A stretch of 28,359 bases of DNA from a virus, in the IMG/VR virus record IMGVR_UViG_3300020472_000130, positions 1 through 28,359 of that record. One strand, written 5' to 3'. The notes beneath the pieces were generated by a model. It had not been told where the DNA came from. It made no database searches and worked only from the letters and a program-made list of their open reading frames with translations. Position numbers and translations under genes: made by a program. Below, one piece after another: positions 1,974-24,144 of the stretch (its first letter is position 1; every line of letters begins with the position of its first letter).

Positions 1974-3007
1974 CAAGTAGATTTACCGCGCTCTCCTATG
2001 ATGATGTGTTGTTGGCGCCCCAATTTTCTGATATACGCTCAAGAAGTGAAATTGCGCTTGAGACAGATTTGCGCAACAATCTAAAGCTTAAACTTCCTGT
2101 CATTGCATCTCCTATGGATACAATCTCCGAAGATCAAATGGCGATAGGGATGGCTGCGTGCGGTGGAACCGCTGTGATTCATCGCTACAACACCATAGAA
2201 CAGCAAGCCCGAATGGTTGGCACTGCTATCGATCAGGTCGAAGAAGGCGGCGTCGTTGGCGCCGCGATCGGTATTTCAGGAGATTTCATCAACAGAGCTT
2301 CTGTCTTGCGCGCACTGGGCATAGATTTCATTTGTGTTGATGTGGCGCACGGTCATCACATCCTAATGAAAGATGCTATAGCAAAACTAAGGACGGTTTT
2401 GGGCCCAGACGTTCATCTTATGGCAGGAAACGTTGCCACTCTGCAGGGCATCAACGATCTGGCAGACTGGGGTGCGGACTCTGTTCGATGTAATATTGGC
2501 GGAGGATCTATTTGTTCCACGCGAATTCAAACAGGACATGGCATGCCCGGACTTCAGACTATTATAGATTGCGCACAGACAGATAGAGATGTCGCGATAA
2601 TTGCAGACGGCGGAATTAAAAACTCCGGAGATATGGTCAAAGCTCTCGCTGCAGGAGCCGATGCAGTTATGGTGGGTTCGCTGTTGTCTGGAACAAGCGA
2701 AACACCCGGCACTGTTATGCAAGATAATGAAGGTCATAAGTGGAAAATGTACCGTGGTATGGCTAGCAAGGAAGCCCAAGTAGACTGGAGGGGCGACTAC
2801 GCATCTCTTGAGGGGGTTGCCACAAGAGTTCCGTATCGCGGGAGTGTCAAGAGCACCTTAGAAGATTTGGAGCGCGGCATACGCTCCGGTCTGTCATACT
2901 CAGGCGCGCGCGACATTAGGGAACTTCAAGCAAAGGCTAGATTTGTGAATCAAAGCACTTCAGGATTATCCGAAAGCCACACCCACATACTGAATAGGAG
3001 ATGGTGA
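1970..3007 (+). CDS. guaB: IMP dehydrogenase/GMP reductase family enzyme, lacking CBS domains
   Basis: 345 residues, a (beta/alpha)8 barrel. IMP dehydrogenase makes XMP from IMP with NAD, the committed step to guanine nucleotides. Seen: '[11 protein letters not shown]' (10-20), '[10 protein letters not shown]' (43-52), 'VDVAHGHH' (123-130), catalytic loop 'GGGSICSTR' with C182, 'IADGGIK' (211-217), '[10 protein letters not shown]' (261-270), '[13 protein letters not shown]' (281-293) and a C-terminal 'SGLSESHTH'. The last two resemble the IMPDH flap and tail, while 'MASKEAQ' is nearer GMP reductase. Ordinary IMPDH has a CBS pair inserted after 'IEQQA'; here that site (about residue 80) runs straight back into the barrel, giving GMP-reductase length. 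I favour an IMPDH without allosteric CBS control; GMP reductase remains possible. AAGGA precedes the ATG. Confidence 0.85.
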
Positions 3008-3664: not shown

Positions 3665-4321
3665 ATGGCTCGTAAAGCACTATTAACAGAAACTGAAATC
3701 CGCAGATTTTTAAAATTAGCAAAATTAGGCACCGTCAAGGATACGCGATTGCACGAAATCGGCGCGATTGATGAGAGAGGTGAAGAAGATCATTTAGAAG
3801 ATGAACTTGAGGCAACTGAGGATGAATTGGGTGCCGAGGATCATATGGCTGATGAGGAAGGCGACGAGTTAGACGCCTTAGAGATGGGTGACGAACTTGA
3901 TGCAGAAGACGACTTGGGTGCAGACGCAGGCGGCTTAGACGGAGAGTTAGAAGATATGTTAGCACAGGGAGTTGAAGCTCTCGCCGCAGCTTGGGGAATT
4001 GAAGACCGAGTTGATGTAGAAGGCGGAGAAGGGGGTGATGTAGATCTAGAAGAGCCTCTCCCAGATGACGAGCTAGCTGGCTTGGGCGGCGAAGAAGAAG
4101 TGGCTATGGACGTCGATGTCGAAGCTGGACCAGACGGTCTTGAGGTCGGCGCCGAGGAAGAAGAGGAAGAAGTTCTGCCCGGTGGTCGTGTATACCAAGA
4201 AGAGAAGATCGTAGCCGAGGTTGCCCGCCGTGTGGTGGCACGCCTCGCTGCAAGTCAAAAGAAAGAGTCGCTCTCCGATGAGTTGGCAGAAAGAATCCTT
4301 AAGAGACTCACATCAAAATAG
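3665..4321 (+). CDS. highly acidic scaffold/prohead-core-like protein
   Basis: 218 residues. A short basic head 'MARKALLTETEIRRFLKLAK' leads into about 150 residues dominated by Glu, Asp, Gly and Ala, then a helical tail 'AEVARRVVARLAASQKKESL'. Acidic proteins with this head-and-tail plan are common in T4-like marine phages and resemble prohead core (scaffold) components, but there is no sequence proof here. GAGGAG sits before the ATG. It begins a new unit after a candidate phage promoter and is followed by a sigma-70-type promoter and a palindrome. A role in capsid assembly is inferred from composition and from the ClpP-like protease nearby. Confidence 0.7.
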   Translation: MARKALLTETEIRRFLKLAKLGTVKDTRLHEIGAIDERGEEDHLEDELEATEDELGAEDHMADEEGDELDALEMGDELDAEDDLGADAGGLDGELEDMLAQGVEALAAAWGIEDRVDVEGGEGGDVDLEEPLPDDELAGLGGEEEVAMDVDVEAGPDGLEVGAEEEEEEVLPGGRVYQEEKIVAEVARRVVARLAASQKKESLSDELAERILKRLTSK

Positions 4322-4395: not shown

Positions 4396-4797
4396 ATGGA
4401 ACATTGGTGGTTTGGTTTATTAACATTTATTTTTGGATATATTACCTGTAGGACTTTTTATTTCTTGCGTTCGATGAGACTTAGCATTATGCTCCAGACC
4501 GCATCGCAGGTAATTTATTTAGCCTCGACCATAAAAGCAATTGAGTATTTATCTCACTCCCGAGAGCTAATGCTGGAGTACATGTTGCGCACCGAGCGCA
4601 ACGCTAGCCATATTAGCAATTTTGAATATCAATTCGATCAGGATGTTCGACACATCAAAGAACGCTCAATCACCTGTTTCAAAGAACTTCATCCAGAGTT
4701 TTTTAAAAGTCGTGTAGACTTTGAAGATTGGGATTCGGCAATGCATTATCTTGAGCAGCACAACACGGCTGTATTTAGTTTTTGGAGGGAGAAGTAA
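4396..4797 (+). CDS. single-span membrane protein, conserved hypothetical
   Basis: 133 residues. Residues 4-24 ('WWFGLLTFIFGYITCRTFYF') form one hydrophobic span; the remainder is soluble and helical, with aromatic and charged residues ('FEYQFDQDVRHIKERSITCF'). No catalytic motif is visible. GCGGAG lies upstream of the ATG, and the stop overlaps the ClpP-like start (TAATG), so the two are likely translated together. The first gene after the palindrome-bearing promoter. Function unknown; an inner-membrane association is inferred from the N-terminal span. Confidence 0.75.
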   Translation: MEHWWFGLLTFIFGYITCRTFYFLRSMRLSIMLQTASQVIYLASTIKAIEYLSHSRELMLEYMLRTERNASHISNFEYQFDQDVRHIKERSITCFKELHPEFFKSRVDFEDWDSAMHYLEQHNTAVFSFWREK

Positions 4798-5441
4798 TGA
4801 TCAATAAGATTAAAGAAAAGGTCAGTAGCCTCATCGATTCGGCGGATGCCCCTGAGACTGCGAGCAAGGTTGTTCTCGTGGACACGGGCGCCTCTCAGTT
4901 AATCGATTCGGAACCAGACATGCGTATCTTAGGGCTCTTCACAGATGTGGGAGAGGAAAAGGTAGCAGAATTAGTGCAGGGTTTGTTATATATGGATGAG
5001 GTAAATAAGATGGAGGAAGATTCAGAAAATTGGAAACCTATCGAGTTTTACCTTTCTACCTACGGCGGGTCAGCGGATGACATGTTTGCGCTGTATGATG
5101 TTATGCGCCAGATTGAAAGTGAAATTCATACCATTGGCGTTGGAAAAGTAATGTCTGCCGGTGTGTTGTTGTTGGCTGCAGGCACCAAGGGAAAAAGAAA
5201 GATAGGAAAGTATTGTCGCGTTATGATACATTCAGCTATGGCAGGGAGCCACGGCTCTCTTCCAAATTTGCTAAATGAGGTCGAGGCACTACAGATTTTG
5301 CAAGCAGATTACATTAGTGCGCTCGTAAGCGAGACAAAGATGTCCGAAGAAGATATCAAAAACATGTTAGAACGCAAAGTTAATGTCTATTTATCTGCAG
5401 AAGAAGCTGTAGAATTAGGTATAGCTGACATAATTATTTGA
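4797..5441 (+). CDS. clpP: ClpP-like serine protease
   Basis: 214 residues, close to the ClpP subunit length. Seen: 'IEFYLSTYGGSADDMFALYD' (oxyanion region, about 82-101), nucleophile in 'GKVMSAGVLLL' (S120), histidine in 'RVMIHSAMAG' (H145), and 'VNVYLSAEEAVELGIAD' near the end, where the third triad position appears to be N196 rather than Asp. Family ClpP forms tetradecamers fed by ClpX or ClpA; no ATPase partner is encoded here, so it would need the host's or act alone. Lying after a scaffold-like gene, it might mature heads, as ClpP-fold proteases do in some tailed phages. Start at 4797, overlapping the upstream stop, with GGAGGGAGAAG before it. Confidence 0.88.
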   Translation: MINKIKEKVSSLIDSADAPETASKVVLVDTGASQLIDSEPDMRILGLFTDVGEEKVAELVQGLLYMDEVNKMEEDSENWKPIEFYLSTYGGSADDMFALYDVMRQIESEIHTIGVGKVMSAGVLLLAAGTKGKRKIGKYCRVMIHSAMAGSHGSLPNLLNEVEALQILQADYISALVSETKMSEEDIKNMLERKVNVYLSAEEAVELGIADIII

Positions 5442-5451: not shown

Positions 5452-7032
5452 GTGGATTTAAAAAATATATTAACAGAAGAGTATTCAAAGAAAAAGAGCG
5501 CCTTCACCCCTGATAGCTTGATGACCCTGATAGAAGAGGTGATGAAGCTGCCGCTGGGGCTGTTGACAGAAGAAACCCGAGAGGGTTTTAGTGTGCGCTT
5601 ATCGCTACCTAGGCTGACCCCTAACGAGGCATGGGGAAACCCTGACAGTCAATCAAGAAAAGACATCGACAGAATCTTCGCGTCAATCACCAGAAAAGGC
5701 ACGATCAAGGAAAGAATAGATCACATCAACAGCTTTGCTGATCCTGTTCGTGCAAAACGAAAAGGTACTGGTCAGAGATTCAATACTATCCTAAACATGA
5801 TGATGATTTTGGAATCATTGCAAGCATGTCTTAACGACTATAGCGAGTCATCCTCCGGTTTTGTTTTCGAGGGATTCATGGCTGCGGTGACGGGCGGTAA
5901 ACAGATCGCTGGTCGTGTTGGGGGAACGTTGCCCATTGAGGACTTTGTTGCTGGCGACGGCGAACCAGTCAGTCTTAAGTTGTTGAGTCCCAAGACACCT
6001 ATTCACGGAAGCTTCACCAACCTTGTTGATTATTTGTTTATTCGTGGTGGAACCGGTGTCGATAACATCAAATACTTGATTGGTCGAAAAAACTCCGACG
6101 ATGCCGGTAGTGTTACAGAACTAATGCTACTTGAGTTCGTCATCAATAGACGGAATTTTGTAGAGATTATGTTGGCTTCTGGTAATGAAGACCTCCTTGG
6201 AGATCAGGCCGCGGCAATTGAAGCCCTTGCTAAAACTTGGAAAGGTAGCGAAGAAGAAATAATCAAAATGCGAGATGTTCTTTTGCGAACTCCCGGGTAT
6301 AACCAAACTCTGGGGATGTTTAAGAAGAATGTAGACGATCAGGGTGGTTTTAATCCCGAAGCTAGCGAGCCGAAAGATCCAGTTGTAAAACAGAAACAAT
6401 ATAAAGGAGAAAAAGGAAGAGCAGAAACCTTCGATGCGCGAAAACAAGGCTTTGCTGACGCCGCCGCAGGCAAAGAGCCTGATTTTGAAAGTTGGCTTGA
6501 AGTAAATGTACCTCAATTAAAAGATCCCGAAACGAAGGAGCAGAAGAGTGACTACCGTAAGGCACTAAGAATGTACAACGCCGGCTATGCTGAATACAAA
6601 CCGGAGCCACCCGAGCCGCTAGCTGAATCTTATTTCGGAGAATTCCACGAAAGAGAGAAGCTTATGATGGAACATGAGCGCAAACTTATGGAAGCCAAGG
6701 GCGCCACCGGTGGCAAACAATGGAAAATTAGTGCGGCAGCTACAGCAAAGTTAACCAACATTGCCGATGTTGATTATTATGGCGAACTTAATTTATCCGA
6801 CGAGAACATCAAAGCCTGCACCGACATCTACATCGAGATTATGGGTGAAAACCTTGTAACTCTCTTAAAGACAACAGAAGAGTTTACCAAAAATATTGGC
6901 AAATACTTTAGCGCAGATCGCCGCTCGACTGCGATGAATGCCAACATGCAAGCGCAGGACGATGGAAAGGCTATCGTTAAAACACTTGCAGCAGAACAAG
7001 TCGCCGGTCAAAAAGAACCTGAAATTGAGTAA
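5452..7032 (+). CDS. 526-residue protein of unknown function, possible nuclease-like N-terminal half
   Basis: GTG start with GAGG eight bases upstream; no better start lies nearby. N-terminus 'MDLKNILTEEYSKKK'. Residues 136-200 contain 'FVFEGFMAAVTGG', 'IEDFVAGDGEPVSLKLL' and 'GSFTNLVDYL'; the E140...D164...SLK176 arrangement is reminiscent of PD-(D/E)xK nuclease folds, but this is only a visual likeness. The middle (about 300-420) is charged and low in complexity, with Lys/Glu/Pro-rich linkers; the C-terminus is helical ('SDENIKACTDIYIEIMGENL'). It follows ClpP by 10 bases, so the two probably work at the same stage. A structural or packaged protein is as likely as an enzyme. Confidence 0.75.
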   Translation: MDLKNILTEEYSKKKSAFTPDSLMTLIEEVMKLPLGLLTEETREGFSVRLSLPRLTPNEAWGNPDSQSRKDIDRIFASITRKGTIKERIDHINSFADPVRAKRKGTGQRFNTILNMMMILESLQACLNDYSESSSGFVFEGFMAAVTGGKQIAGRVGGTLPIEDFVAGDGEPVSLKLLSPKTPIHGSFTNLVDYLFIRGGTGVDNIKYLIGRKNSDDAGSVTELMLLEFVINRRNFVEIMLASGNEDLLGDQAAAIEALAKTWKGSEEEIIKMRDVLLRTPGYNQTLGMFKKNVDDQGGFNPEASEPKDPVVKQKQYKGEKGRAETFDARKQGFADAAAGKEPDFESWLEVNVPQLKDPETKEQKSDYRKALRMYNAGYAEYKPEPPEPLAESYFGEFHEREKLMMEHERKLMEAKGATGGKQWKISAAATAKLTNIADVDYYGELNLSDENIKACTDIYIEIMGENLVTLLKTTEEFTKNIGKYFSADRRSTAMNANMQAQDDGKAIVKTLAAEQVAGQKEPEIE

Positions 7033-7090: not shown

Positions 7091-8674
7091 ATGAGTCGCA
7101 AATATGACGACAACCAAACCCTTAGACAGAAAATAATGACTGGCGCTAATAAGCTGGCGGACAATGTGGCATCCACTCTTGGACCCAGAGGTAGAAATGT
7201 ACTTCTACAGGAGGCTGGTCGCACTCCCTTTGTTACTAAAGATGGCGTCACTGTCGCGCACTTTGTAGCGATGGATGATCCGTTTGAAAATGCTGCAGCC
7301 CAAATCATAAAACAAGCAGCAATCGAAACCAATAACGAGGCAGGAGATGGAACGACAACGGCTACTGTTTTAGCGCGCGCCATTCTTCGTGAGTCACAAA
7401 GATTTATTGCGGCAGGCACATCGCCTACCGAATTACAAAGGGGGATCAATCTTGCTACCAAAGAAGTTTTACACAACCTATCAAACTTGGCGCGCCCAGT
7501 TACAAGTCTTGATGACATCGAACACATCGCTACCATTTCTGCGAACAATGATAAATCCATCGGAAAGCTTATCGCTATGGCTGTGGATCGCGTTGGTCAA
7601 GATGGATCAATTACTATTGAAGAGTCTCGTTCACTAGAGACGTCATTAGACATCAACGAAGGCTTTAAATTTAATTCTGGATATTGCGCAGGTGCATTTG
7701 TTACCGACGAACGCCGCGCCGTAATGCAACACGACGATCCGCTTATACTGGTTACTGACCACAAGATAAGCTCAGTAGAAATGATCATCACAACACTGGA
7801 GATGTGCGCCAGAGAAAGCAGACCACTCATAATTATTGCAGAAGAAATCGAAGGACAAGCCTTAGCGGCGATGATTATGAATGCAATGCGCGGTACGCTT
7901 AAGGTGGCTGGGATTAAAGCTCCGTCTTATGGTGAAGAGCGCCGTCACATCTTAAGCGACATTGCTCTTTCAACCGGCGCTACATTCATCTCGCGCGAAA
8001 GCGGCATCAAGCTGAAAGATGTGCAAATGAGCCACCTAGGGTCGACAGATTTTGTGGAAAGCACAAAATATCAAACCACTTTTGTTGGTGGTGCTAGTGA
8101 TCACGAGGCGCTTGAAGAGAAGGTCGAGTCTCTCAAGGCTTTGATTGAGCAGACAGATTCCTTGCAGGAATGTGAGTACCACCAAGGAAGGTTAGTTAGG
8201 TTGCTTTCGGGTGTTGCAGTTATTCGAGTCGGCGGAGCCACTGAGGTGGAAATGACCGAAAAGAAACATCGCATTGAGGATGCGCTGGAGGCAGTAAAAT
8301 CAGCACAAGATGAAGGATTGGTGCCGGGTGGTGGTACAGCCCTTCTTCGCGCATCTGAATCTATTTGCATAATTACCGAAGGCGCACACCCGGAGCAGGG
8401 TGCGGGAGTCGCTATTATCCAAGCAGCATGCCGAGATCCCATCAAGCAGATGGCGCGAAACGCAGACGAATCGTCGGATATTGTAGTCCAAAAAGTATTG
8501 CAATCAACCGGGATGCAGGGTTGGGACTTCAACCAAGGCGATATAGTTAATTTAATAGACAGCGGCGTGGTTGACCCGGTTAAAGTAACAAAAGCTGCCT
8601 TAAAGAACGCCGCTAGTTGTGCTGGCACCTTAATCACCACTAATTATGGTATAATACAAACGGAGGACAAATGA
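7091..8674 (+). CDS. groEL: phage-encoded chaperonin GroEL (Hsp60)
   Basis: 527 residues, slightly shorter than bacterial GroEL (about 548). Seen: 'LGPRGRNVLL' (30-39), 'TKDGVTVA' (49-56), the ATPase motif GDGTTT (85-90), 'IIAEEIEGQALAAMI' in the apical domain, 'RIEDALEAVKSAQDEGLVPG' with the ATP-hydrolysis Asp, and 'DSGVVDPVKVTK' near the C-terminus. The GGM repeats of the bacterial tail are missing; the protein ends 'TTNYGIIQTEDK'. It would form a folding chamber for ATP-driven folding, probably of capsid or other phage proteins. No GroES gene is adjacent, so it may use host GroES, a distant phage co-chaperonin, or work without one. TGAGG precedes the ATG; it has its own sigma-70 promoter. 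Confidence 0.96.
   Translation: MSRKYDDNQTLRQKIMTGANKLADNVASTLGPRGRNVLLQEAGRTPFVTKDGVTVAHFVAMDDPFENAAAQIIKQAAIETNNEAGDGTTTATVLARAILRESQRFIAAGTSPTELQRGINLATKEVLHNLSNLARPVTSLDDIEHIATISANNDKSIGKLIAMAVDRVGQDGSITIEESRSLETSLDINEGFKFNSGYCAGAFVTDERRAVMQHDDPLILVTDHKISSVEMIITTLEMCARESRPLIIIAEEIEGQALAAMIMNAMRGTLKVAGIKAPSYGEERRHILSDIALSTGATFISRESGIKLKDVQMSHLGSTDFVESTKYQTTFVGGASDHEALEEKVESLKALIEQTDSLQECEYHQGRLVRLLSGVAVIRVGGATEVEMTEKKHRIEDALEAVKSAQDEGLVPGGGTALLRASESICIITEGAHPEQGAGVAIIQAACRDPIKQMARNADESSDIVVQKVLQSTGMQGWDFNQGDIVNLIDSGVVDPVKVTKAALKNAASCAGTLITTNYGIIQTEDK
8647..8655 (+). promoter_or_regulatory. possible extended -10 promoter inside the 3' end of groEL
   Basis: TGG-TATAAT at 8647-8655 just upstream of the next gene. 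No -35 at a normal distance is seen, so this is weak; the GGAGG at 8662-8666 that follows is the ribosome site of the next gene. Confidence 0.3.
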
Positions 8675-10670: not shown

Positions 10671-11429
10671 ATGGCCAGTATTTATCTTTTTGATGTCGAT
10701 GGAACCTTAACGCCGCCGAAAGCCCGCGTAGACGATAGTTTTAAGAGTTTGTTTTTAAAGTGGATGAAAAACAAAGAAGTCTATATTGTATCAGGTGGTT
10801 CGTTTGTCAGGATAATAGATCAATTGGGAGATGAAATTGTAAACAAAACGGAAGGTGTCTTTGCGTGCATGGGAAACATTTTTTATAGACAAGTCGAAAA
10901 CATCAACCCCACCGGCTTCAACGAATGGCAAATTGTATATGAGAATAAATTCAAGGCGCCGGCTGGGTTATATCGCGATTTGGATACAATTGTTCACAAT
11001 TCTCACTACGATGCCAAGACACAAAATCATTATGAAGCCCGAACCGGTATGGTAAACTTTTCGATCGTCGGAAGAGACGCTACGGAGTCGCAACGAAAAG
11101 ATTATGCCGACTATGATGCGGAGGAGTTTGAGCGCGCACACATAGTCGAAGATTTAAAAGAAAAATACCCCAAATTAGATTTTGTTATTGGGGGCGCCGT
11201 TAGTATTGATATATTTAATATAGGCAACGATAAGTCTCAAGTTATCGACCGCCATCTAGAAGAGGCTCTAGAACATAATAGGGTTCACTTTGTTGGAGAT
11301 AGAATACCCTTTCCGGGCAATGACTATTCGATAGCCGTAGCGTTACAACAGCACCCCAACGGCGCTACCTACGAGGTTGAAAACTGGAAAGATACAGCCA
11401 AACTATTAAAGACGGAGCCTTTTGCGTAG
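10671..11429 (+). CDS. HAD-superfamily phosphatase/phosphomutase, eukaryotic-type phosphomannomutase-like
   Basis: 252 residues. HAD motif I 'LFDVDGTLTPP' gives D8 and D10. 'VYIVSGGSFVRI' resembles motif II. 'GMVNFSIVGRDA' (about 126-137) and the closing 'FVGDRIPFPGNDYSIA' match the cap and motif IV of phosphomannomutases of the eukaryotic type (compare GDKTxPGGNDxEI). It would interconvert mannose-1- and -6-phosphate, or act as a sugar-phosphate phosphatase; the true substrate is not evident. The ribosome site is weak. A role in sugar-nucleotide supply, e.g. for glycosylated DNA or surface glycans, is inference. Confidence 0.8.
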   Translation: MASIYLFDVDGTLTPPKARVDDSFKSLFLKWMKNKEVYIVSGGSFVRIIDQLGDEIVNKTEGVFACMGNIFYRQVENINPTGFNEWQIVYENKFKAPAGLYRDLDTIVHNSHYDAKTQNHYEARTGMVNFSIVGRDATESQRKDYADYDAEEFERAHIVEDLKEKYPKLDFVIGGAVSIDIFNIGNDKSQVIDRHLEEALEHNRVHFVGDRIPFPGNDYSIAVALQQHPNGATYEVENWKDTAKLLKTEPFA

Positions 11430-11443: not shown

Positions 11444-11455
11444 AACTATTTATAG
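11444..11455 (+). promoter_or_regulatory. candidate phage-specific (late?) promoter element AACTATTTATAG
   Basis: Exact copy of the element at 3623-3634, in the 41-base gap before the 1189-codon gene, with its end 15 bases from the ATG. Confidence 0.35.
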
Positions 11456-11470
11456 TGTTGGGAGAAAATA

Positions 11471-14400
11471 ATGGATATTTCTACAGGAAATTGGTTTGAG
11501 TATCTTCGAGAAGAAGTTTTAACGGAAGGGTTGAGAGATATAGGTCTCCCCGAAAAGATTGTCGACTTTATTGAGAACGCGATGGCAAAGGCGCCCGAGA
11601 AGGCAAAGATGTACGCGGGCAATCAGTGGAAGGCGTACGAATTGAGCCGCGGCTATAGCGAGAGACCCGCGCGGCAGTGGCGTTCCTTCATGGAGGAAAA
11701 CTTCGAAGACGAGATACAGGTGCAGATGGGGACCGACCCCGACTCCAAGCCCGAAATCACCGCCCGAACAATCACTCCCTACCGCGTCGACCGCGACGTT
11801 GGACCACAGCAGCGCAAGTCGTACGACGATGAAATGGTCGACCGGAACAAGAAGATCGCTTTCGTTGTCCAGAATGTGACAGCCGCTTTTAACAAACCAT
11901 GCGGCACTTGGCGCAAGACATTCATGAAAGCAGTCAAGGCTTTAAGCAAAGCCGGCGTGGAATCTGAGAAGGTCGAAAAAGTAAAAGAGTGGCTCGCAGC
12001 ATTTATGTTCCAAGAGTTCCGTTCGTTCTATTCACAATACAGTGAATTGTTTGATTGGCTCAATGACGAGCCCACCAACTACGAAATGATTAAAAACGAA
12101 GACGACATCAACTCAGCATACAACACAGCCAAACAAGATCTAGAGAACCGCGAGGACCCAGACTATGTTATCCACGAATTCGATGACGGCTCGTACTGGT
12201 ATAACTTAAATGTATCCAGTTGCGGTGTTGAAGGCGAGCGAATGGGACACTGCGGGTCAGACTCTCGCGGTGTGCTGGTGTCGCTCCGCAAGCGCCAAGG
12301 CAAACGCAAAGCATCCTCGTCCTACGTCACGATGACTTGGGAAGCCGAAGGATACGGAGGCAACTATCTCTACCAAATTAAGGGACGCTCCAACGAAGCG
12401 CCTCCCGAGGAAGTATGGGATCACATCAGTTGGTTCATCAGCAATATGGGTGTTAACAATGTTCAAGAAGACGGCGAACACTCACGCAACCCGGAAGAAT
12501 TCGCAGAGATGCTGGAGTACCTCCAGCGAGAAAACCCCAACGTTGCGTTCACAGGTGTTGTCGATGAGCAAGCAATCCAAGAAGCACTAGACGAGGTGGA
12601 AGGAGCATATGATGACCCAAATGAAAACTCCAGCATTGATGCACAAGTGATGGGTCCAGATGAACACGGCGGCGAAGGACACTATATCTATATGAACGCC
12701 TACTGCAATCTTCAGATTGACTTGGGATGGCCAGACATTGTAGTGCGCGATGGTGGTGACGCTTATCCTGCTGTAGAGGCAGGCTCCGGCGACTATGACG
12801 ACAACTTCCATCCGATCCCCGCCAACACTTGGGGTCGCGAAGCCCGAGACTTCTCATCTGAGATTGAGATCGAGAACATCGAATGGGATCTTCCCGGCGA
12901 AGGTGAGACTGAATGGGACGTTAAAATGTTAGCGGGAGCCGATCCTAACTGGGAAGCCGGTGACCCCGAGCCAGCAAAAACCGCACACCTTGAGATAGAG
13001 ATTCGCATGACTCACCAAGAGGCAGCGAGCGATCCCGAAGAAGCCAAGTGGGAGTTTGAGCAGTTTGCCGAACAGGTCAAAGAAAACTTTGCAGACAACT
13101 ATGACGAGATCGTAGAGAAGATACGCAGGAATTTGGTGGAAGGTGAGTTCATAGCCAAGACAGCCTATGATCGCACACGTACCGAATTGACAGAGACCGA
13201 TCTTCGACACTGGCATGTGTACAACGATGACAATAGCAGCGCCGTCGAGTTCTGGTTCAGGCTCTCCGAAAATCACCACACCGCAATCAACAACCTTGGC
13301 GGCGAACTTGGCTCAATTCCAAATGAGTATAAGATGTGGGCGTTCGATGAAGGGCAAGAAGGGATGATCGATGGGCTATACAGCAAGATGTTTGGCTCTC
13401 CTTCGATTGGAGGCGCCGGCGCCGACAGACCTCGCATCGAGAACCCGACACTCAATCAGGAAATGGCATATGCTTTAAAGCAGCGTTACTCAGAGTTTCA
13501 CGATGGGCCCGACCGCGCACAACAGCAGCTTGCACTGGGAGACAAATACAAACAACAGAGACGAGGACCTCCGTGGTTGTCTGTGCTGAGGGAAAACTCT
13601 CGCTTTATTATCCACGCCGAATCAAGCCTCAAAGGTAGTGGATATCGAACTCAATTAGTTAACTGGAAGTTTGAGATTTTTGTGGATGCTAGATCCGACG
13701 AAGAGACTATCGAAGCAGTTAAAGCTATGGTTAAATACTTTAACGACAACCCCGATATGGTAGAGGACGCAGCCCAAGACGTTATTGGAACAAGATTTGC
13801 CACCATCAAAGCACTCGCAGCCGCAAACAAAGAAGAGGTACTCTCAGGTAAGCGCCTTGAGGTTGCGGTCCAGCGCATCGACAGCATGTACGCAGCACAG
13901 GTCGCTTCCGGCTCAGACGAATGGGCAGAGAGGGCGGTTGCGACAGCAAAATGGATTAGAGATAACTGGGACAGCATGGATGAGGTTGAGAAATGGGTTG
14001 GTTACTATAAGTATGTCCTGCCGCTGGCAACGCGGCGACTCAATTTTGCGTTGACCATCCCCGGCATTGAGATGGATGATGGCGACAACTACGGTAGACC
14101 TTCTACATGGAATAAACTTGTCAAGGACCAGCTTAACAAGCTGGGTGCGTTTGGCGGCACCGTGCGTGACTATGGCGGCGTTCAACGCGGAGAAACGCAG
14201 GCAGGCTCGGTTGGAGAACCAAGGACAGCACAAGAGAGCATCGAGCAGCAGATTGATAGGATTGAGAGTTTGCTTAAAGAAAAAGACGACGCGTACGATC
14301 TTAGACTTTACAGCATCAAGATCGACGTCGCTGTGCAAAAAGACATAGGAGGCGAGGTTCAAGAAACCCAAACGGAGATTAGAGGTATCGAAGGGGTTAC

Positions 14401-15040
14401 GACGGTCCGAACTATCGGAGCTACGCAGAATACCCCACAAGCGTTACTGGCAACGTATGAAGTTAAATTTGAATTGGTAGGCGCAATCAGTCGTGTTAAG
14501 TATCGGGATCGTATTTTAATACCCGGACTCATGCAAGTTAAAGGATTCCGAGTCTTAAGAGTTAGCCCAATTCATCGTACCAACATGCGAGGAACAATTA
14601 GAACGGTGCGCGAAAGCCAGCAGTCCTTAAAAGAAGACGGCTTTGGGGGAGTAGCCGGCGCAATGGGTTCAGTGCGTACAGGAAATTCTAGACCCCTTCC
14701 AACTCCGCGAGGCTCCATTGATTCAATCGCACAGGATTGGGCATCGGGAGGCGTAATGGTATACGACATGCCAATGGACACGTCCAATATGGCATATCAC
14801 GTGATGATGCCGGTATCAGAGTTGCTTCCTTATACGTCTCGGGAATTCCGTGCGCCTATGGATGCCTTCGATGGAATGTATCAACAGTTTATCAAAAACG
14901 GGGCGACAGCGCCCGTCTATGTAGCCATTGGAAAGAACGGAAGAGTTAAAATAACAGGCAACGAGGACTTGGTATGGTTCGCTAAAAAGAGCGGATTAGA
15001 AGATCTCCCAGTCTTTTTCAGTTATCAAAGGCAAGTTTAG
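11471..15040 (+). CDS. 1189-residue multidomain virion or injected (polyvalent-like) protein
   Basis: The largest gene. The N-terminus 'NWFEYLREEVLTEGLRDIGL' looks like a head-targeting peptide, with L-T-E|G (17-20) fitting the T4-type prohead protease site [LI]xE|[GAS]. Residues 239-325 hold 'CGVEGERMGHCGSDSRGVLV' and 'YLYQIKGRSNEAPPEE', a Cys/His motif block like that of PcfJ-type proteins. The centre (about 370-560) is acidic and Gly/Asp/Glu-rich. The last 82 residues ('MMPVSELLP', 'PVYVAIGKNGRVKITGNEDL', 'LEDLPVFF') follow the ParB N-domain pattern, though the usual 'GNHR/GERR' is 'GNED'. GGGAGA precedes the ATG. I infer a packaged multidomain protein; a tail or baseplate component is possible. 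Confidence 0.8.
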   Translation: MDISTGNWFEYLREEVLTEGLRDIGLPEKIVDFIENAMAKAPEKAKMYAGNQWKAYELSRGYSERPARQWRSFMEENFEDEIQVQMGTDPDSKPEITARTITPYRVDRDVGPQQRKSYDDEMVDRNKKIAFVVQNVTAAFNKPCGTWRKTFMKAVKALSKAGVESEKVEKVKEWLAAFMFQEFRSFYSQYSELFDWLNDEPTNYEMIKNEDDINSAYNTAKQDLENREDPDYVIHEFDDGSYWYNLNVSSCGVEGERMGHCGSDSRGVLVSLRKRQGKRKASSSYVTMTWEAEGYGGNYLYQIKGRSNEAPPEEVWDHISWFISNMGVNNVQEDGEHSRNPEEFAEMLEYLQRENPNVAFTGVVDEQAIQEALDEVEGAYDDPNENSSIDAQVMGPDEHGGEGHYIYMNAYCNLQIDLGWPDIVVRDGGDAYPAVEAGSGDYDDNFHPIPANTWGREARDFSSEIEIENIEWDLPGEGETEWDVKMLAGADPNWEAGDPEPAKTAHLEIEIRMTHQEAASDPEEAKWEFEQFAEQVKENFADNYDEIVEKIRRNLVEGEFIAKTAYDRTRTELTETDLRHWHVYNDDNSSAVEFWFRLSENHHTAINNLGGELGSIPNEYKMWAFDEGQEGMIDGLYSKMFGSPSIGGAGADRPRIENPTLNQEMAYALKQRYSEFHDGPDRAQQQLALGDKYKQQRRGPPWLSVLRENSRFIIHAESSLKGSGYRTQLVNWKFEIFVDARSDEETIEAVKAMVKYFNDNPDMVEDAAQDVIGTRFATIKALAAANKEEVLSGKRLEVAVQRIDSMYAAQVASGSDEWAERAVATAKWIRDNWDSMDEVEKWVGYYKYVLPLATRRLNFALTIPGIEMDDGDNYGRPSTWNKLVKDQLNKLGAFGGTVRDYGGVQRGETQAGSVGEPRTAQESIEQQIDRIESLLKEKDDAYDLRLYSIKIDVAVQKDIGGEVQETQTEIRGIEGVTTVRTIGATQNTPQALLATYEVKFELVGAISRVKYRDRILIPGLMQVKGFRVLRVSPIHRTNMRGTIRTVRESQQSLKEDGFGGVAGAMGSVRTGNSRPLPTPRGSIDSIAQDWASGGVMVYDMPMDTSNMAYHVMMPVSELLPYTSREFRAPMDAFDGMYQQFIKNGATAPVYVAIGKNGRVKITGNEDLVWFAKKSGLEDLPVFFSYQRQV

Positions 15041-15847: not shown

Positions 15848-16069
15848 ATGATGAGAATGAAAAAAGTAACAGACGAATACGATACCTTGGTAGGTAAAAT
15901 TGAGGATTTAGACGTTCAGATTTTAAAAATGAGCGCCCAACTAAGAGAGTTGCGAGGGATGCTCGTAGAGAAATTGGTAAAATCTTCTACAAAAAAGAAG
16001 GAAGAGGCACGTGTACCTTCTGAGATAGTTTTTTTAGAAGTAGATGACAAGACCGGAGGTCTGTCGTGA
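15848..16069 (+). CDS. small coiled-coil protein
   Basis: 73 residues; ATGs at 15848, 15851 and 15857 compete, and 15851 has the best distance from AAGGGA. Residues 8-45 form a heptad-like helix ('LVGKIEDLDVQILKMSAQLR'), followed by a basic 'STKKKEEAR' and a short tail. No known family. GTG of the next gene overlaps its stop by 4 nt, and GGAGG for that gene lies within its 3' end. Probably an oligomeric accessory of the neighbouring virion genes, which is inference. Confidence 0.65.
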   Translation: MMRMKKVTDEYDTLVGKIEDLDVQILKMSAQLRELRGMLVEKLVKSSTKKKEEARVPSEIVFLEVDDKTGGLS

Positions 16070-16407
16070 CTGATATTGATGACGATGTAATAGAAATGGT
16101 GGCAGCCGAGTCTGAAGATCTAAAACCTAAACCCCCGCCGCGACTCGCTCCCCGAGGAATACGCACTTTCACTGTCTGTAGACAGAATGATGAAACCGGC
16201 GTTAGTGGGGAAGGAGTTGTTATCGAGGGAGTATCGCTAGCTTCAGGACACTGCATTATCCATTGGTTGTTTCCCCCGCCGCGTGGAGGAATTGCCATCT
16301 TTGATTCTTTGGACGACTTTTTAAAGGTTCATGTGAAACCTCATCCGTCAAATAAAACAATTATCACATTTGAAGACGGCGAACAGAACACATATGAAGG
16401 AGGCTGA
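16066..16407 (+). CDS. conserved small phage protein with SGxGVVxEGV motif
   Basis: 113 residues from a GTG start, GGAGG at the correct distance. 'RQNDETGVSGEGVVIEGVSL' and 'CIIHWLFPPP' match a widespread small family in phages and bacteria typified by 'DxSGxSGTGxVAEGVxFxDGxxxxxW', whose function is unknown. Here the usual 'IHGHGG' block is replaced by 'VHVKPHPSNKTII'. The N-terminal 40 residues are acidic and proline-rich. It ends 3 bases before the tail-fibre-like gene. Confidence 0.75.
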   Translation: MTDIDDDVIEMVAAESEDLKPKPPPRLAPRGIRTFTVCRQNDETGVSGEGVVIEGVSLASGHCIIHWLFPPPRGGIAIFDSLDDFLKVHVKPHPSNKTIITFEDGEQNTYEGG

Positions 16408-17895: not shown

Positions 17896-18687
17896 ATGAA
17901 TGGAACAAACTGGAAAGATTTTGTAGACTCAGTTTACGGAATATCGACACATGAACCAGCGATGGAAGAAGAAGTCGAGGCAGACTCTTTTACCAATCAT
18001 GAGGATCTTGAGCCAGCTTTCTGGAAAGACATGGAACTCAACCCGCATCTCCAAGAAAGAATGATCAAGATTGCAAACTTCTTCATGCAGCACCTACCCG
18101 TTGAAGCCGAAATCAAAGATATAAGATTGACAGGCTCTTTGGCAAACTATAACTGGTCAAACTACTCAGATGTAGACTTGCATATTGTGGTGGATTTTTT
18201 AGATGTTGACGAGAACCTTGACTTAGTTAAAGCATATTTTGACAACGCTCGCATGCGCTGGAATTCAAATCACCAAATGAGACTGAAAGGTTATGATGTG
18301 GAAGTTTATGTGGAGAATGCTGACGAGAAGCATCTGTCATCTGGCGTCTACTCGGTATTGAACGGAGAGTGGATCAAGAAACCCGAGCGATATCAAAAAA
18401 ATATAGACTTTAGTGGCGCCCGCCAGAAGGCAGAAGATATCGAATTTCAGGTGAACATTGTCGGCAATCTCTTAACGGCTCGCAAATTTAAAGCAGCCCT
18501 TAAAAATATATACCGCCTAAAGTCCAAGATTAAAAACATGCGTCGTGCTGGTTTGGAAAGCAAACGCAGAGAGTTTTCCGTAGAAAACATAGCATTTAAG
18601 ATTCTACGCAGAAATGGTACAATTGAAAATCTAAACAACTATAAGACTCAACTTGAGGATACCATGTTGAGCATGCCGGAGCAATAA
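17896..18687 (+). CDS. nucleotidyltransferase-fold protein
   Basis: 263 residues. 'IRLTGSLANYNWSNYSDVDL' has the GS (80-81) and D92/D94 of the Pol-beta-type nucleotidyltransferases; the third carboxylate is probably E135 in 'GYDVEVYVEN'. A helical C-terminus follows ('KFKAALKNIYRLKSKIKNM'). It could transfer a nucleotide to RNA, protein or an antibiotic; the substrate is unknown. The N-terminus 'MNGTNWKDFVDSVYGIS' resembles that of the 1189-residue protein ('GNWFEYLREEV'), hinting at a common head-targeting peptide. No clear ribosome site precedes this ATG; ATG at 17962 is an alternative but would remove that N-terminus. Confidence 0.8.
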   Translation: MNGTNWKDFVDSVYGISTHEPAMEEEVEADSFTNHEDLEPAFWKDMELNPHLQERMIKIANFFMQHLPVEAEIKDIRLTGSLANYNWSNYSDVDLHIVVDFLDVDENLDLVKAYFDNARMRWNSNHQMRLKGYDVEVYVENADEKHLSSGVYSVLNGEWIKKPERYQKNIDFSGARQKAEDIEFQVNIVGNLLTARKFKAALKNIYRLKSKIKNMRRAGLESKRREFSVENIAFKILRRNGTIENLNNYKTQLEDTMLSMPEQ

Positions 18688-21358: not shown

Positions 21359-21444
21359 GGCTGATTGGTGGAACTGGTATACACACAAGACTTAAAATCT
21401 TGCGCCCGTTGGGCTTGCGGGTTCGAATCCCGCATCAGCTACCA
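21359..21444 (+). tRNA. tRNA-Leu(UAA)
   Basis: Acceptor GGCTGAT/ATCAGCT (first pair G-U), D arm, anticodon stem CAAGA/TCTTG with loop CTTAAAA (anticodon TAA at 21393-21395), long variable arm GCCC-GTT-GGGC as expected for Leu, T stem GCGGG/CCCGC with TTCGAAT, and encoded CCA. Reads UUA. Confidence 0.95.
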
Positions 21445-21462
21445 TTTTAATAAGGAGGGAAA

Positions 21463-21654
21463 ATGTCCAACATTTTCAAATACATGATAGCAGGAGTTTT
21501 AATTTACTTTGGACTCAACTGGATTGCGGATAATCCACAATCAGTAAAAAACATCAGAAAAATGATGAATGAGGGAGTTGCAACCGCAGCGGAATATGCA
21601 GGAGAAGGATTAAAGAGCGCCCAAGAAAGCGCCACACAATCTATTGACAAATAA
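21463..21654 (+). CDS. small single-span membrane protein
   Basis: 63 residues. 'YMIAGVLIYFGLNWIA' near the N-terminus is one hydrophobic span; the rest is an Ala/Glu/Ser-rich amphipathic helix ('GVATAAEYAGEGLKSAQESA'). Excellent ribosome site AAGGAGGGAAA. It sits 18 bases after tRNA-Leu and likely shares its transcript. A membrane-binding helix with a single anchor could perturb the host membrane, but no toxin or holin family is identified. Confidence 0.75.
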   Translation: MSNIFKYMIAGVLIYFGLNWIADNPQSVKNIRKMMNEGVATAAEYAGEGLKSAQESATQSIDK

Positions 21655-21658
21655 ACTC

Positions 21659-21687
21659 TTGCTATTGGGTATCATAGCAGCTATATT
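21659..21687 (+). promoter_or_regulatory. sigma-70-type promoter
   Basis: TTGCTA at 21659-21664, 17-base spacer, TATATT at 21682-21687. A TTGACA lies 15 bases upstream (21644-21649), part of a recurrent double -35 pattern. Confidence 0.65.
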
Positions 21688-21709
21688 ATAAGTAATCATA
21701 GGAGGAAAT

Positions 21710-21865
21710 ATGGATTTCAACATAGGCGATATTGTAAAGCACAACCGAAAGGGAGTGGGAGTAGTGCAGCTTATCGACGGCATTGCTGTCTGGGTGCGAT
21801 GGACAGGCGGTGAACTTAACCACTCAAGCTCATTTGATCTTGAGGTTCTTGACAAGGCACCATGA
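21710..21865 (+). CDS. GDLV mini-protein 2 of the array
   Basis: 51 residues, the smallest member: 'MDFNIGDIVKHNRKGVGVVQ', then 'LIDGIAVWVRWTGGELNHSS' and 'FDLEVLDKAP'. This is close to the minimal family core: an entry strand with G-D-I-V, a turn and strand G-V-V, the strand V-x-V-x-W, and a closing L-E-V-L. ATAGGAGGAAAT supplies a strong ribosome site. Its last codon overlaps the next ATG (ATGA). Confidence 0.8.
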   Translation: MDFNIGDIVKHNRKGVGVVQLIDGIAVWVRWTGGELNHSSSFDLEVLDKAP

Positions 21866-22071
21866 GAGTTGGCGATCTCGTAAAGTACATCCCGAGTCCT
21901 TCTGCTACCTTTAAGTGGGAGAAGTATACGGATGCGTTCAAGGTGCTTCCGGGCATTATTGTCCGTGAGGTGGAGTCGAAAGGCACTACCACGCGCCGGT
22001 TTGAGATACGCTGGCACGACGGAGAAATCTCAGAAGAATGGATAAGCTATCTGGAGCCGTATGAAGTTTAA
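21862..22071 (+). CDS. GDLV mini-protein 3 of the array
   Basis: 69 residues: 'MRVGDLVKYIPSPSATFKWE', 'GIIVREVESKGTTTRRFEIR', 'WHDGEISEEWISYLEPYEV'. Fits the family core, with an extra loop after strand 1. Coupled to the previous gene by a 4-nt ATGA overlap. The terminal 'LEP' codons supply the GGAG ribosome site of the next gene. Confidence 0.85.
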   Translation: MRVGDLVKYIPSPSATFKWEKYTDAFKVLPGIIVREVESKGTTTRRFEIRWHDGEISEEWISYLEPYEV

Positions 22072-22261
22072 GAAAGGCGATCTGGTTGTGCATGCAAAAG
22101 GTACGATCCATCCCTTTAGGGAGTTGCGCGGAGTTGTGGTGAGCGATGATATATTTAATGACTCAGAGTTTGGAGTTTGTCGAGTGTTCTGGTATACCAC
22201 CAGCCGCTACCAGAACATTCAAGAAGATTGTCTTAAATCTCTTGACAACTCCTTGACTTGA
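22061..22261 (+). CDS. GDLV mini-protein 4 of the array
   Basis: 66 residues: 'MKFKKGDLVVHAKGTIHPFR', 'GVVVSDDIFNDSEFGVCRVF', 'WYTTSRYQNIQEDCLKSLDN'. Overlaps its predecessor by 11 nt, the predecessor's TAA lying inside this gene's codons 3-4. Its own 3' end contains the first two TTGAC boxes of the next promoter, so coding and promoter sequence overlap. Confidence 0.85.
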   Translation: MKFKKGDLVVHAKGTIHPFRELRGVVVSDDIFNDSEFGVCRVFWYTTSRYQNIQEDCLKSLDNSLT

Positions 22262-22286
22262 CGTTGAGGGGTTTGGGTGCTATATT
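22258..22286 (+). promoter_or_regulatory. sigma-70-type promoter with upstream second -35
   Basis: TTGACG at 22258-22263, 17-base spacer, TATATT at 22281-22286. Extra TTGACT at 22253-22258 and TTGACA at 22242-22247, the latter 16 bases upstream of the working -35. Confidence 0.85.
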
Positions 22287-22305
22287 ATAGGTATAGAAAG
22301 GAGAA
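22273..22305 (+). repeat. 33-nt perfect direct repeat (promoter-leader cassette), copy 1
   Basis: Identical to 26141-26173. It spans the -10 box, the transcription start, the leader (ATTATAGGTATAG) and the ribosome site (AAAGGAGAA). A recent copy of an expression cassette is the simplest reading. Confidence 0.9.
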
Positions 22306-22308
22306 GAA

Positions 22309-22650
22309 ATGAAACTTTGGGTTTTACACGGAACATACGAGAGTGAAATGTTTACCTCGATCCACTTAACTGAGAAGGGGTGTGCGCTGGCTGCGATTGC
22401 TGATGTGATGGACTTCTTTCACATCGCCAGCGAAGAAGATGCGTTGCAAGTGATGAGTGAGTGTTATGCGTACCGCGACAGTAAAGAGGGTGAGCCAACG
22501 GAAGCGTTTGAGTGGGATCATGACAAGCTGAAAGAAATGACAAGTAAGCAGCTTTGGAAGATTTTTGGTGACTGGACTGAAACGTGCTGGGAACGGATGT
22601 CAGATCGCTCCTACTACATCGACGCCACCCCACAGATGGTGCAAGCATGA
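22309..22650 (+). CDS. hypothetical protein, SxHLTEKG family (paralogue 1)
   Basis: 113 residues. 'LWVLHGTYESEMFTSIHLTE' then 'KGCALAAIADVMDFF', a charged helix and 'KLKEMTSKQLWKIFGDWTET'. The next gene shares the scheme W-V-x(n)-S-x-H-L-T-E-K-G-A..., so the pair is a tandem duplication that has diverged. Strand-then-long-helix fold predicted; no active site seen. Ribosome site AAAGGAGAA from the duplicated 33-nt cassette. Confidence 0.8.
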   Translation: MKLWVLHGTYESEMFTSIHLTEKGCALAAIADVMDFFHIASEEDALQVMSECYAYRDSKEGEPTEAFEWDHDKLKEMTSKQLWKIFGDWTETCWERMSDRSYYIDATPQMVQA

Positions 22651-22952
22651 TGAACATTTGGGTAGTAAGACAGACTTGTTTGTATGATAATGAAACCTAT
22701 GTGTCCTCGCACTTGACCGAGAAAGGTGCCTTGATCACAGCTATCAAGACCGTGCGTTCAGATGTGTGTGATGGTTTTAACGAGGATGAAATGGACGATT
22801 ATCGCCCCGGCTTGCCACATGATCCCGAGGAAGATTTGATGCAGTACGATAGAAAGCAACTGCAAGGGATTGTCCAAGACTGGTGGGAATATGCGTGGGA
22901 TGCAAACGAAGAAGTCCAGTATCAGATTTATGAAACACGAGTGGAAGCATGA
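22647..22952 (+). CDS. hypothetical protein, SxHLTEKG family (paralogue 2)
   Basis: 101 residues (or 100 from the ATG at 22650). 'IWVVRQTCLYDNETYVSSHL' 'TEKGALITAIKTV' and 'LMQYDRKQLQGIVQDWWEYA' align by eye with the previous gene. ATGA overlap joins it to its paralogue, and its own stop overlaps the next ATG. Function unknown. Confidence 0.8.
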   Translation: MMNIWVVRQTCLYDNETYVSSHLTEKGALITAIKTVRSDVCDGFNEDEMDDYRPGLPHDPEEDLMQYDRKQLQGIVQDWWEYAWDANEEVQYQIYETRVEA

Positions 22953-23203
22953 AAGTTTTAACTACATTTATTTTAGTGGGAATGATTGATACTCACGATG
23001 CTCATTTTGCAACGGTCGAACTAAATACTAATCCAGCATCCAATGGCGGTCCAGCAATCGCGGTTATGCCCGTGAACGCTTTTCCATGCGAGATTTACGA
23101 AGGTAAAGTATTTTATGTCGTTAAACTTTCCGAGCTGATGGATGCGGTAGTTATTTGTCAGGAGGATGTAAAAGATGAACCAACACGAGAAAGAGCTGAT
23201 TGA
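22949..23203 (+). CDS. small hypothetical protein
   Basis: 84 residues: 'MKVLTTFILVGMIDTHDAHF' then 'ATVELNTNPASNGGPAIAVM' and 'EGKVFYVVKLSELMDAVVIC'. Beta-rich with no clear active site; the first strand is hydrophobic but too short and polar to be a certain signal peptide. ATGA overlap with its predecessor; 29 nt overlap with the next small gene. Confidence 0.65.
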   Translation: MKVLTTFILVGMIDTHDAHFATVELNTNPASNGGPAIAVMPVNAFPCEIYEGKVFYVVKLSELMDAVVICQEDVKDEPTRERAD

Positions 23204-23339
23204 CAGATGCATCGAATCGCATTATAATATGATTAGGATGCACAGAAGGGCAATCATCGAGTTGTCCCGCAAGACCATCAAGGAGCGAGAGTGGTGCGAG
23301 GAATGTTTCGATTTAGAGATCAAAAATGAAAATCGGTGA
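23175..23339 (+). CDS. small basic helical protein leading into the GDLV run
   Basis: 54 residues, too short for standard length cut-offs. 'MNQHEKELIDRCIESHYNMI' 'RMHRRAIIELSRKTIKEREW' is one long amphipathic helix, ending 'CEECFDLEIKNENR' with a possible metal-binding C-x-x-C. Its TGA lies inside the Gly-Asp codons of the next gene (14-nt overlap). AGGATGTAAAAG lies before the ATG. Confidence 0.65.
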   Translation: MNQHEKELIDRCIESHYNMIRMHRRAIIELSRKTIKEREWCEECFDLEIKNENR

Positions 23340-23523
23340 TTTGGTAAAGTTTGAAAGTGAGTTGGTTGACGACATGGATCACCATTCGGCACAGTACGGC
23401 TTGGTCATGCAGTTGTCAAAGACCGGTCACGATACAACGTCTGTGCAAGTGCTGTTTACCGATGGAGATCCTTGGTGGGTTGATTCGTCAAGATTGGTGG
23501 TGGTAAATGAAAGCGGGAGATAA
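23326..23523 (+). CDS. GDLV mini-protein 5 of the array
   Basis: 65 residues: 'MKIGDLVKFESELVDDMDHH', 'QYGLVMQLSKTGHDTTSVQV', 'LFTDGDPWWVDSSRLVVVNE'. Full family core. Starts inside the preceding gene by 14 nt and is itself overlapped by 17 nt at the 3' end, where the terminal 'NESGR' is simply the next gene's start read in another frame. Confidence 0.85.
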   Translation: MKIGDLVKFESELVDDMDHHSAQYGLVMQLSKTGHDTTSVQVLFTDGDPWWVDSSRLVVVNESGR

Positions 23524-23686
23524 AGTGTCGATGGACGATGTGTGGAAGCATGGCTACGCAATAGGCGAGATTCAGAAGGTAACGGCAGACGGCTACGTGG
23601 TTGTCAAGTGGGAGAACGTCCCCGGCCAGTGGCACTACACCGAAGAACAAGCAAAGAGATTGGAGGTTATGGACAATGAAGAATAA
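23507..23686 (+). CDS. GDLV mini-protein 6 of the array (GDKV variant)
   Basis: 59 residues: 'MKAGDKVSMDDVWKHGYAIG', 'EIQKVTADGYVVVKWENVPG', 'QWHYTEEQAKRLEVMDNEE'. The motif is G-D-K-V instead of G-D-L-V. Overlaps the previous gene by 17 nt. Its terminal 'RLEVMD' codons hold GGAGGT, the ribosome site of the following lipoprotein gene. Confidence 0.8.
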   Translation: MKAGDKVSMDDVWKHGYAIGEIQKVTADGYVVVKWENVPGQWHYTEEQAKRLEVMDNEE

Positions 23687-23930
23687 TATAATGAGGTTTT
23701 TGCCGCTGATAATGCTATTGGGATGTGCAGCGAATAAGACAAAGATGATGGGAGTTATCTCGGCAAACGAGATTTATTTTGATGGATGGGTGCCGGTTGA
23801 AGTTACAAATGCGCCTGACGCCCCTATTATGTGGGTGAGATTAGACAAAAGACAACTTGAACAAGCAAAGAAAGGGACGAATGTTGTTTTCTATGTTGAA
23901 GCAACGGAGATTCATAATGAAGGTTGGTGA
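23676..23930 (+). CDS. small predicted lipoprotein embedded in the array
   Basis: 84 residues from the ATG at 23676. 'MKNNIMRFLPLIMLLGCAAN' is a short signal peptide with a lipobox L-L-G-C (Cys17), so the mature protein would be lipid-anchored. The mature part 'EIYFDGWVPVEVTNAPDAPI' 'MWVRLDKRQLEQAKKGTNVV' is beta-rich. Its end overlaps the next GDLV gene by 14 nt with the usual TGA-in-GGTGAT junction, showing that unrelated genes can also be spliced into this arrangement. Possible roles include superinfection exclusion, which is inference. Confidence 0.75.
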   Translation: MKNNIMRFLPLIMLLGCAANKTKMMGVISANEIYFDGWVPVEVTNAPDAPIMWVRLDKRQLEQAKKGTNVVFYVEATEIHNEGW

Positions 23931-24144
23931 TTTGGTTAAACTAAGGGCGATGCACCGTCGCCAAAAATCCCGCGCCGGATTGATTGTTGAACTTGTTGAC
24001 AAAAAATGCTGGCGTACAGATATGCGTGGAAACAAGGTAGATTGGAGCAAGATCGACCCGGAGCCACATGCGGTAGTGGTAGTCAACGGAGCGACTCTGA
24101 CGATCCCCCTAACGGACTTGGAGCCGCTGGATGAAGATCGGTGA
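23917..24144 (+). CDS. GDLV mini-protein 7 of the array
   Basis: 75 residues from the ATG at 23917: 'MKVGDLVKLRAMHRRQKSRA', 'GLIVELVDKKCWRTDMRGNK', 'LTIPLTDLEPLDEDR'. GGAG lies 8 bases upstream inside the lipoprotein gene. The longer in-frame ATG at 23857 would run through that gene and is not favoured. Very basic N-terminal half, compatible with nucleic-acid binding. Confidence 0.85.
   Translation: MKVGDLVKLRAMHRRQKSRAGLIVELVDKKCWRTDMRGNKVDWSKIDPEPHAVVVVNGATLTIPLTDLEPLDEDR

Follow-up and report, generated by a model that had tools for sequence, protein, structure and literature searches.

The 28,359-nucleotide stretch analysed here (the window, a 28.4-kb fragment corresponding to record IMGVR_UViG_3300020472_000130 of an uncultured marine T4-like phage in IMG/VR) contains a gene for a 1189-residue protein that starts with ATG and lies in a fixed gene neighbourhood of T4-like phages. 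From its N-peptide, domain architecture and putative promoter, the protein is probably packaged in the phage head, cut by the prohead protease and ejected. The parts of the gene are listed in Table 1. Scans of the window protein against Pfam and PHROGs gave no significant match, and weak matches to DUF1326, SnoaL and XRN1 differed from homologue to homologue and were rejected. Because these library scans of the protein alone were empty, families were built from IMG/VR.

Full-length homologues are present in dozens of uncultured T4-like phages in IMG/VR. Three close full-length relatives (L001–L003) have best-segment identities of 68–86% in one IMG/VR scan. Scanning IMG/VR with the domain that carries the MGHC motif (the MGHC domain) yielded 88 encoding viral loci, many of them on contigs of 190–560 kb, and the last ~110 residues yielded 87 loci. 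A scan with gp31 of Salicola phage SCTP-2 alone as query gave no match. The MGHC domain is essentially viral, since the match in GTDB genomes consisted of two contigs from metagenome-assembled genomes only. The family appears to have gone unannotated so far. One homologue (L038:9419–13888, 1490 residues) carries a large insertion and has the top PcfJ score of the full-length homologues (17.5 bits), and the gene in L102 is broken into several open reading frames (ORFs).

Table 1. Features of the gene and related loci. Positions are those of the window unless a relative's contig (L number) is given.
Feature	Position	Strand	Basis or remark
Promoter-like motif CTATTTAT	11446..11453	+	17 nt upstream of start codon
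GGGAG, ribosome-binding-like	11460..11464	+	6 nt ahead of ATG; read from sequence
Whole ORF, predicted head-packaged multidomain protein, 1189 residues	11471..15040	+	Full-length homologues
Residues 1–19, capsid-targeting-like N-peptide MDISTGNWFEYLREEVLTE, predicted cut after E19	11471..11527	+	L/I-x-E conservation, model
Residues 20–365, exchangeable N-terminal module, here of MGHC type	11528..12565	+	Replaced in relatives
Residues 233–330, PcfJ-like domain: C251, E254, H260, C261, R273, QIKGRSN 302–308	12167..12460	+	Conservation, HMM–HMM comparison, structure
Residues 366–937, conserved body without recognised fold; linker with possible site LKE937 at end	12566..14281	+	Common to both architectures
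Residues 943–1037, DUF211-like ferredoxin-fold domain	14297..14581	+	Structure matches; region from topology
Residues 1041–1078, disordered Gly-rich linker, second predicted protease site LKE1055	14591..14704	+	[LIM]xE conservation, low pLDDT
Residues 1108–1189, ParB/sulfiredoxin-like tail, GNED 1163–1166 replacing arginine motif	14792..15037	+	Fold, conservation, HHalign
Nucleotidyltransferase-like (Pol-beta-type) neighbour, same conserved locus	17896..18687	+	CTATTTAT motif
SCH-module genes	L105:2041-6363, L116:2374-6336, L128:1330-6345, others		
Mini versions	L115:5566-6342, L141:5587-6372		

Domain architecture and module exchange

Among PcfJ-like proteins, the MGHC domain forms a divergent branch. 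Its Cys/His block, C251-x2-E254-G-x2-M258-G-H260-C261 followed by Q302-I-K-G-R306, is located where a preliminary description of the sequence had placed it and likened it to PcfJ. Among 44 full-length homologues, C251, E254, R257, M258, H260, C261, S271–R273, T287, Q302, K304, G305, N308 and P311 are invariant. In 48 diverse domains, with identities down to ~20%, invariance still holds for W243, L246, C251, E254, M258, H260, C261, S271, R273, T287, N308 and P311, and the pattern [QE]-[IM]-K-G-R-[GAS]-N recurs. PF14284 (PcfJ) is the Pfam family that matches most MGHC members, all below its cut-off: the window protein gave no match, the best relative reached 17.5 bits against a gathering threshold of 25, and two close homologues matched directly with sub-cut-off E-values of 0.0045 and 0.0037. 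Hidden Markov model (HMM) profiles were compared in HHalign with an independent set of PcfJ proteins from plasmids and phages. The probability rose from 90.6% with only the close family to 95.2% with every MGHC domain and 97.0% once bridging sequences were added; a reversed control gave 0.2%. The bridging proteins score above the PcfJ cut-off and are encoded by jumbo phages that also have an MGHC protein; examples read WKLTGPSCLDREGNLMGHCV... and WWKLTGPSCLDREGNLMGHCVADY...ILSLRDSKNNPHVTVEL...QIKGKENEPP. L089, a 360-kb phage, encodes a bridging PcfJ protein in which HITV/HITVS motifs resembling a 2H phosphoesterase lie upstream of the PcfJ domain.

Structure prediction gave the same relationship. 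The model of the MGHC domain has a predicted local distance difference test score (pLDDT) of 88.9 and a predicted template modelling score (pTM) of 0.70, compared with 79 and 0.43, respectively, for the full-length AlphaFold model. Among viral structures, the domain model is matched best by a 735-residue protein, the same length as SCTP-2 gp31, and by several PcfJ proteins; the latter matched in BFVD with probabilities of 0.87–1.00 and E-values of 2e-3 to 2e-2, at low global TM-scores. PDB sequence profiles contained no relatives of the domain. By structure, the PDB list was dominated, weakly (E 0.06–0.4, TM ≤0.35), by histone and small-molecule acetyltransferases of the MYST/HAT1/GNAT type, which is no more than suggestive of a GNAT-like fold in the model. 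A GNAT identity by sequence profile was rejected (HHalign 0.03–0.1%). With its conserved Cys, His and Glu residues, the domain may be catalytic or may have a thiol/metal site.

At the other end of the protein, the last 82 residues are predicted to fold as beta-alpha-alpha-beta-beta-alpha-beta. A Foldseek search with the full-length model matched PadC, KorB, ParB, Noc, sulfiredoxin (Srx) and SbnI, and also the archaeal ferredoxin-like DUF211 structures 2x3d, 3bpd and 2raq, in both cases with probabilities of 0.99–1.00; given the length of the query, the E-values are only modest. By predicted topology, these two groups of matches were assigned to residues 1108–1189 and 943–1037, respectively. 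HHalign aligned 53 tails in the correct register with a thin set of four ParB sequences, at 60%. PDB sequence profiles held no relatives of the tail, and PF02195 (ParB N-terminal) was unmatched by 11 tails and by this gene in the contigs tested. The nucleotide-binding motif of the G-E-R/H-R type is absent from the tail, where GNED occupies positions 1163–1166. D1166 is invariant (44/44), G1163 and E1165 are found in at least 90% of homologues, and one close relative has HGID instead. Such conservation implies an altered site, a maintained alternative that has not decayed. The ParB fold proposed in the preliminary description stands, but its term "degenerate" misleads, GNED being a replacement that is conserved. 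Separate profile searches and structure predictions thus gave links to both PcfJ and the ParB fold. Since the defining features of PF14284 and of ParB were tested and are lacking, we class the two regions as a PcfJ-like branch and a ParB fold, rather than as PF14284 and ParB.

The N-terminal module is exchangeable. In nine non-redundant relatives, an unrelated Cys/His module, denoted SCH, takes the place of residues ~20–365, and homology begins at ~366. These proteins of 1293–1675 residues lie at the same locus, have the same type of N-peptide and are homologous to residues 366–1189 at 22–49% identity. The SCH module has the motif LRMSD-x5-SCH-x-E, given as DVLRMSD-x-I-x-SCH-x-E-G-x4-C for L105, L116, L128 and others, and has no Pfam match. 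We considered the possibility that it is a diverged PcfJ domain. It gave 74% as a second alignment within the full-length comparison; we do not claim the link, because the score was ~1% or less when the module was compared alone. Two mini versions of 259–262 residues lack the body and consist of the N-peptide, the DUF211-like domain and the ParB-like tail only. Together, the module swap and the mini versions define the constant part as the N-peptide plus the C-terminal cassette. In 16/16 contigs there is a single copy of the tail per genome (two listings of two tails are pieces of one protein).

Protease-type sites and a shared promoter-like motif

In T4, gp21 cleaves after L/I-X-E, and short N-peptides, the capsid-targeting sequences (CTSs), take internal proteins into the core (PMC9026906). 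The N-peptide of the present protein, a low-confidence (low-pLDDT) helix at residues 2–16 followed by a loop, closes with VLTE followed by G, and the first 19 residues end in L/I-x-E in every relative, as expected from the head-targeting-like N-terminus noted earlier. At the E19 column, [LIM]xE is found in 44/44 sequences, and it is the sole [LIM]xE present in all homologues. An N-terminal [LI]xE occurs in all 45 MGHC-type proteins and in all 13 proteins that combine this tail with the other architecture. Among distant short MGHC proteins, which otherwise differ at the N-terminus, 29 of 38 have a strict [LI]xE[AGSNI] near the start, against 20.5% of control N-termini (p = 2.6e-13, with sequences treated as independent). 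The MGHC protein of the cultured Salicola phage SCTP-2, gp31, has LFE followed by S close to its N-terminus. The motif is rare in the N-termini of GroEL (1/15), IMPDH (1/9) and HAD proteins (0/25). A gp21-type protease is encoded in 10/10 and a gp23-type capsid protein in 9/9 of the relatives' contigs tested.

A second candidate site, LKE1055, lies in the disordered linker ahead of the ParB-like tail (pLDDT 28–43). There, [LIM]xE is present in 41/44 homologues, and in a set of 55 sequences it was counted 46 times, compared to 14.9 expected by shuffling. Control low-confidence linkers have no such conserved site (8/41 at residues 480–502 and 9/43 at 645–700). E937 is a weaker third candidate ([LIM]xE 75%, pLDDT 47).

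The motif CTATTTAT occurs five times in the window, with 0.98 expected. Four copies are on the + strand (3625, 5387, 11446 and 17884) and precede, in that order, o3665, o5452, the gene described here and that of the nucleotidyltransferase; in relatives, it is the products of these four genes that have L/I-x-E-type N-termini. CTATTTA lies ahead of the present gene in 33/35 non-redundant relatives and ahead of o3665 in 15/16, compared to 0/64 for o9568, 0/51 for o9172, 0/26 for HAD and 1/26 for GroEL; it is nearly absent before the IMPDH and trypsin-like genes too. In relatives, the CTATTTAT/CTATTTA motif is strand-biased (69 on the gene strand, 3 on the opposite strand), and it is found 1.2–2.5 kb upstream of gp23, in the head operon, in 7/7 cases on the gene strand and in none on the other. 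The classical T4 late promoter TATAAATA was found upstream in 1/37 and was rejected in favour of CTATTTA, which we infer to be the late promoter of these phages, seemingly standing in for TATAAATA.

The fixed neighbourhood reads GroEL, o9172, o9568, (HAD), this gene, trypsin-like, o16066, (fibre), nucleotidyltransferase. Relatives of the nucleotidyltransferase begin with CTS-like peptides (MDKWFRFLNE, MSFKRWQDFLTE), making it a second candidate packaged protein. The product of o3665 (3665–4321) is acidic and scaffold-like, with a conserved LLTE/LLNE near its start (17/17). The 526-residue ORF at 5452–7032, which has no assigned family, has an L/I-x-E-type N-terminus in 14/16 relatives and a CTATTTA motif upstream. 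With 59–95% identity in relatives, the 113-residue ORF at 16066–16407 ranks with the best-conserved genes of this neighbourhood. Phage-encoded IMPDH-like (1970–3007), ClpP-like (4782–5441), GroEL (7091–8674) and phosphomannomutase/HAD-like (10671–11429) genes are also present, and five tRNA genes (Leu, Lys, Met, Arg, Ile) lie amid many small ORFs at 21359–27595.

Probable packaging and processing, and alternative explanations

We consider it most likely (probability roughly 0.68) that this multidomain protein, with its exchangeable module, is packaged in the head, processed by the prohead protease and probably ejected, similar to T4 Alt and the internal proteins. It would be produced alongside virion genes from the late-type promoter, and the N-peptide, acting as a CTS, would pull it into the prohead core. 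There, the gp21-type protease would cut after E19, probably after E1055 and perhaps after E937, yielding a body of ~115 kDa and a ParB-like tail of ~134 residues. The body would enter the cell with the DNA, and the exchangeable PcfJ-like domain, through its C251/E254/H260/C261 site, may then act on a target of the host or of a competitor. In this scheme, the carrier would consist of the invariant N-peptide, DUF211-like and ParB-like parts, and residues 20–365 would be a swappable payload. This agrees with the preliminary description, which had compared the protein to packaged and injected polyvalent proteins. Features new to that description are the DUF211-like domain, the cleavage-like site near the tail, the promoter motif common to several genes and the exchange of N-terminal modules.

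Several points weigh against this interpretation. The window itself, a 28-kb fragment too short to contain it, has no protease gene, and the protease is deduced from relatives; one of these is an 82-kb contig whose homologue is 70% identical. Because the L/I-x-E motif is short and the homologues are not independent, the shuffling and binomial figures above overstate the significance. The phage is uncultured, and packaging and cleavage are predictions from sequence. In the literature consulted, we found no activity of any PcfJ protein. Finally, the large conserved body could equally be compatible with a structural role.

Such a role would make the protein a cleaved component of the head core or scaffold that shapes or fills the prohead, is processed like the T4 core proteins and does nothing to the host. 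The scaffold-like o3665 has the same L/I-x-E and promoter features, there is one conserved gene per genome, and the body is kept in both architectures; yet two phages do without the body altogether, and the invariant Cys/His/Glu cluster of the PcfJ-like domain, together with its replacement by an unrelated domain, fits a payload better than a scaffold. We therefore regard the structural explanation as rather unlikely. It is improbable that the protein is a late-expressed cytoplasmic or tail-associated one, in which L/I-x-E is a coincidentally conserved helix or linker sequence. Its location is deduced, and its neighbours include fibre-like, GroEL, ClpP-like and HAD genes, but coincidence does not readily explain an L/I-x-E that is universal across otherwise unrelated modules and rare in the N-termini of GroEL, IMPDH and HAD. 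The ParB-like tail might also be the active part, a nuclease or NTPase as predicted for polyvalent proteins, with the PcfJ-like body only a regulator. The tail and DUF211-like part form an invariant unit that stands alone in two phages, and E1165 and D1166 are strongly conserved; the tail, however, lacks the arginine motif, does not match PF02195 and is less strictly conserved than the PcfJ-like site, and we give this last explanation very little credence.

A bolder proposal can also be made, which we consider possible but doubtful. The locus would be a head-delivery cassette, in which a fixed CTS and a fixed C-terminal DUF211/ParB-like carrier flank an exchangeable, protease-separated effector. 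Injected payloads would then be traded among T4-like phages at a single locus, and the PcfJ-like payload would be an enzyme of an unrecognised, possibly GNAT-like, acyltransferase fold. This would be the first predicted function for PcfJ proteins. More generally, the results tie an uncharacterised, widespread family to proteins that large T4-like phages seemingly put into their heads, at a locus that exchanges the predicted payload and keeps the carrier fixed. The combination of a short N-peptide, L/I-x-E and a CTATTTA promoter may serve as a simple signature for packaged proteins in uncultured phages. With the swap locus and this signature, phage injection and payload evolution become testable in cultured relatives such as SCTP-2.

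Relation to known systems

With PcfJ-like proteins of plasmids and phages (PF14284), the MGHC domain shares EG-x2-M-x-HC, S-x-R, T and [QE]-x-x-G-x-x-N in register, as well as the structure matches. It differs in having HCG for HCV, an extra invariant Cys ten residues upstream and a sub-cut-off Pfam score, and in being embedded in a packaged-type protein of ~1190 residues. The tail has the same topology as the ParB/sulfiredoxin-fold proteins PadC, KorB, Noc, Srx and SbnI (probability ~1.0), whereas it has GNED in place of the arginine motif and is PF02195-negative; neither a helix-turn-helix nor a ParB C-terminal domain follows, because the protein ends there.

The polyvalent proteins (Iyer et al. 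2017, PMC5512222) likewise combine several unrelated domains, including a ParB-like domain, with domain swapping and presumed ejection. The present protein has more than one unrelated domain (PcfJ-like, DUF211-like and ParB-like) and shows domain exchange in its module swap, whereas no metallopeptidase, MuF or ArdC-type hub domain was recognised in it by Pfam; PcfJ goes unmentioned in that study. With T4 Alt and IPI–III, it shares the short N-peptide ending in L/I-x-E and the presence of a gp21-type protease and a gp23 capsid protein in the same phages. Alt is cleaved at both ends, at ITE-6 and LTE-619 (PMC5694885), and the second site described here may be the counterpart of the latter. Unlike these T4 proteins, the protein described here has no ADP-ribosyltransferase domain that we could find, is known from its sequence alone, and combines a length of ~1190 residues with a constant C-terminal cassette.

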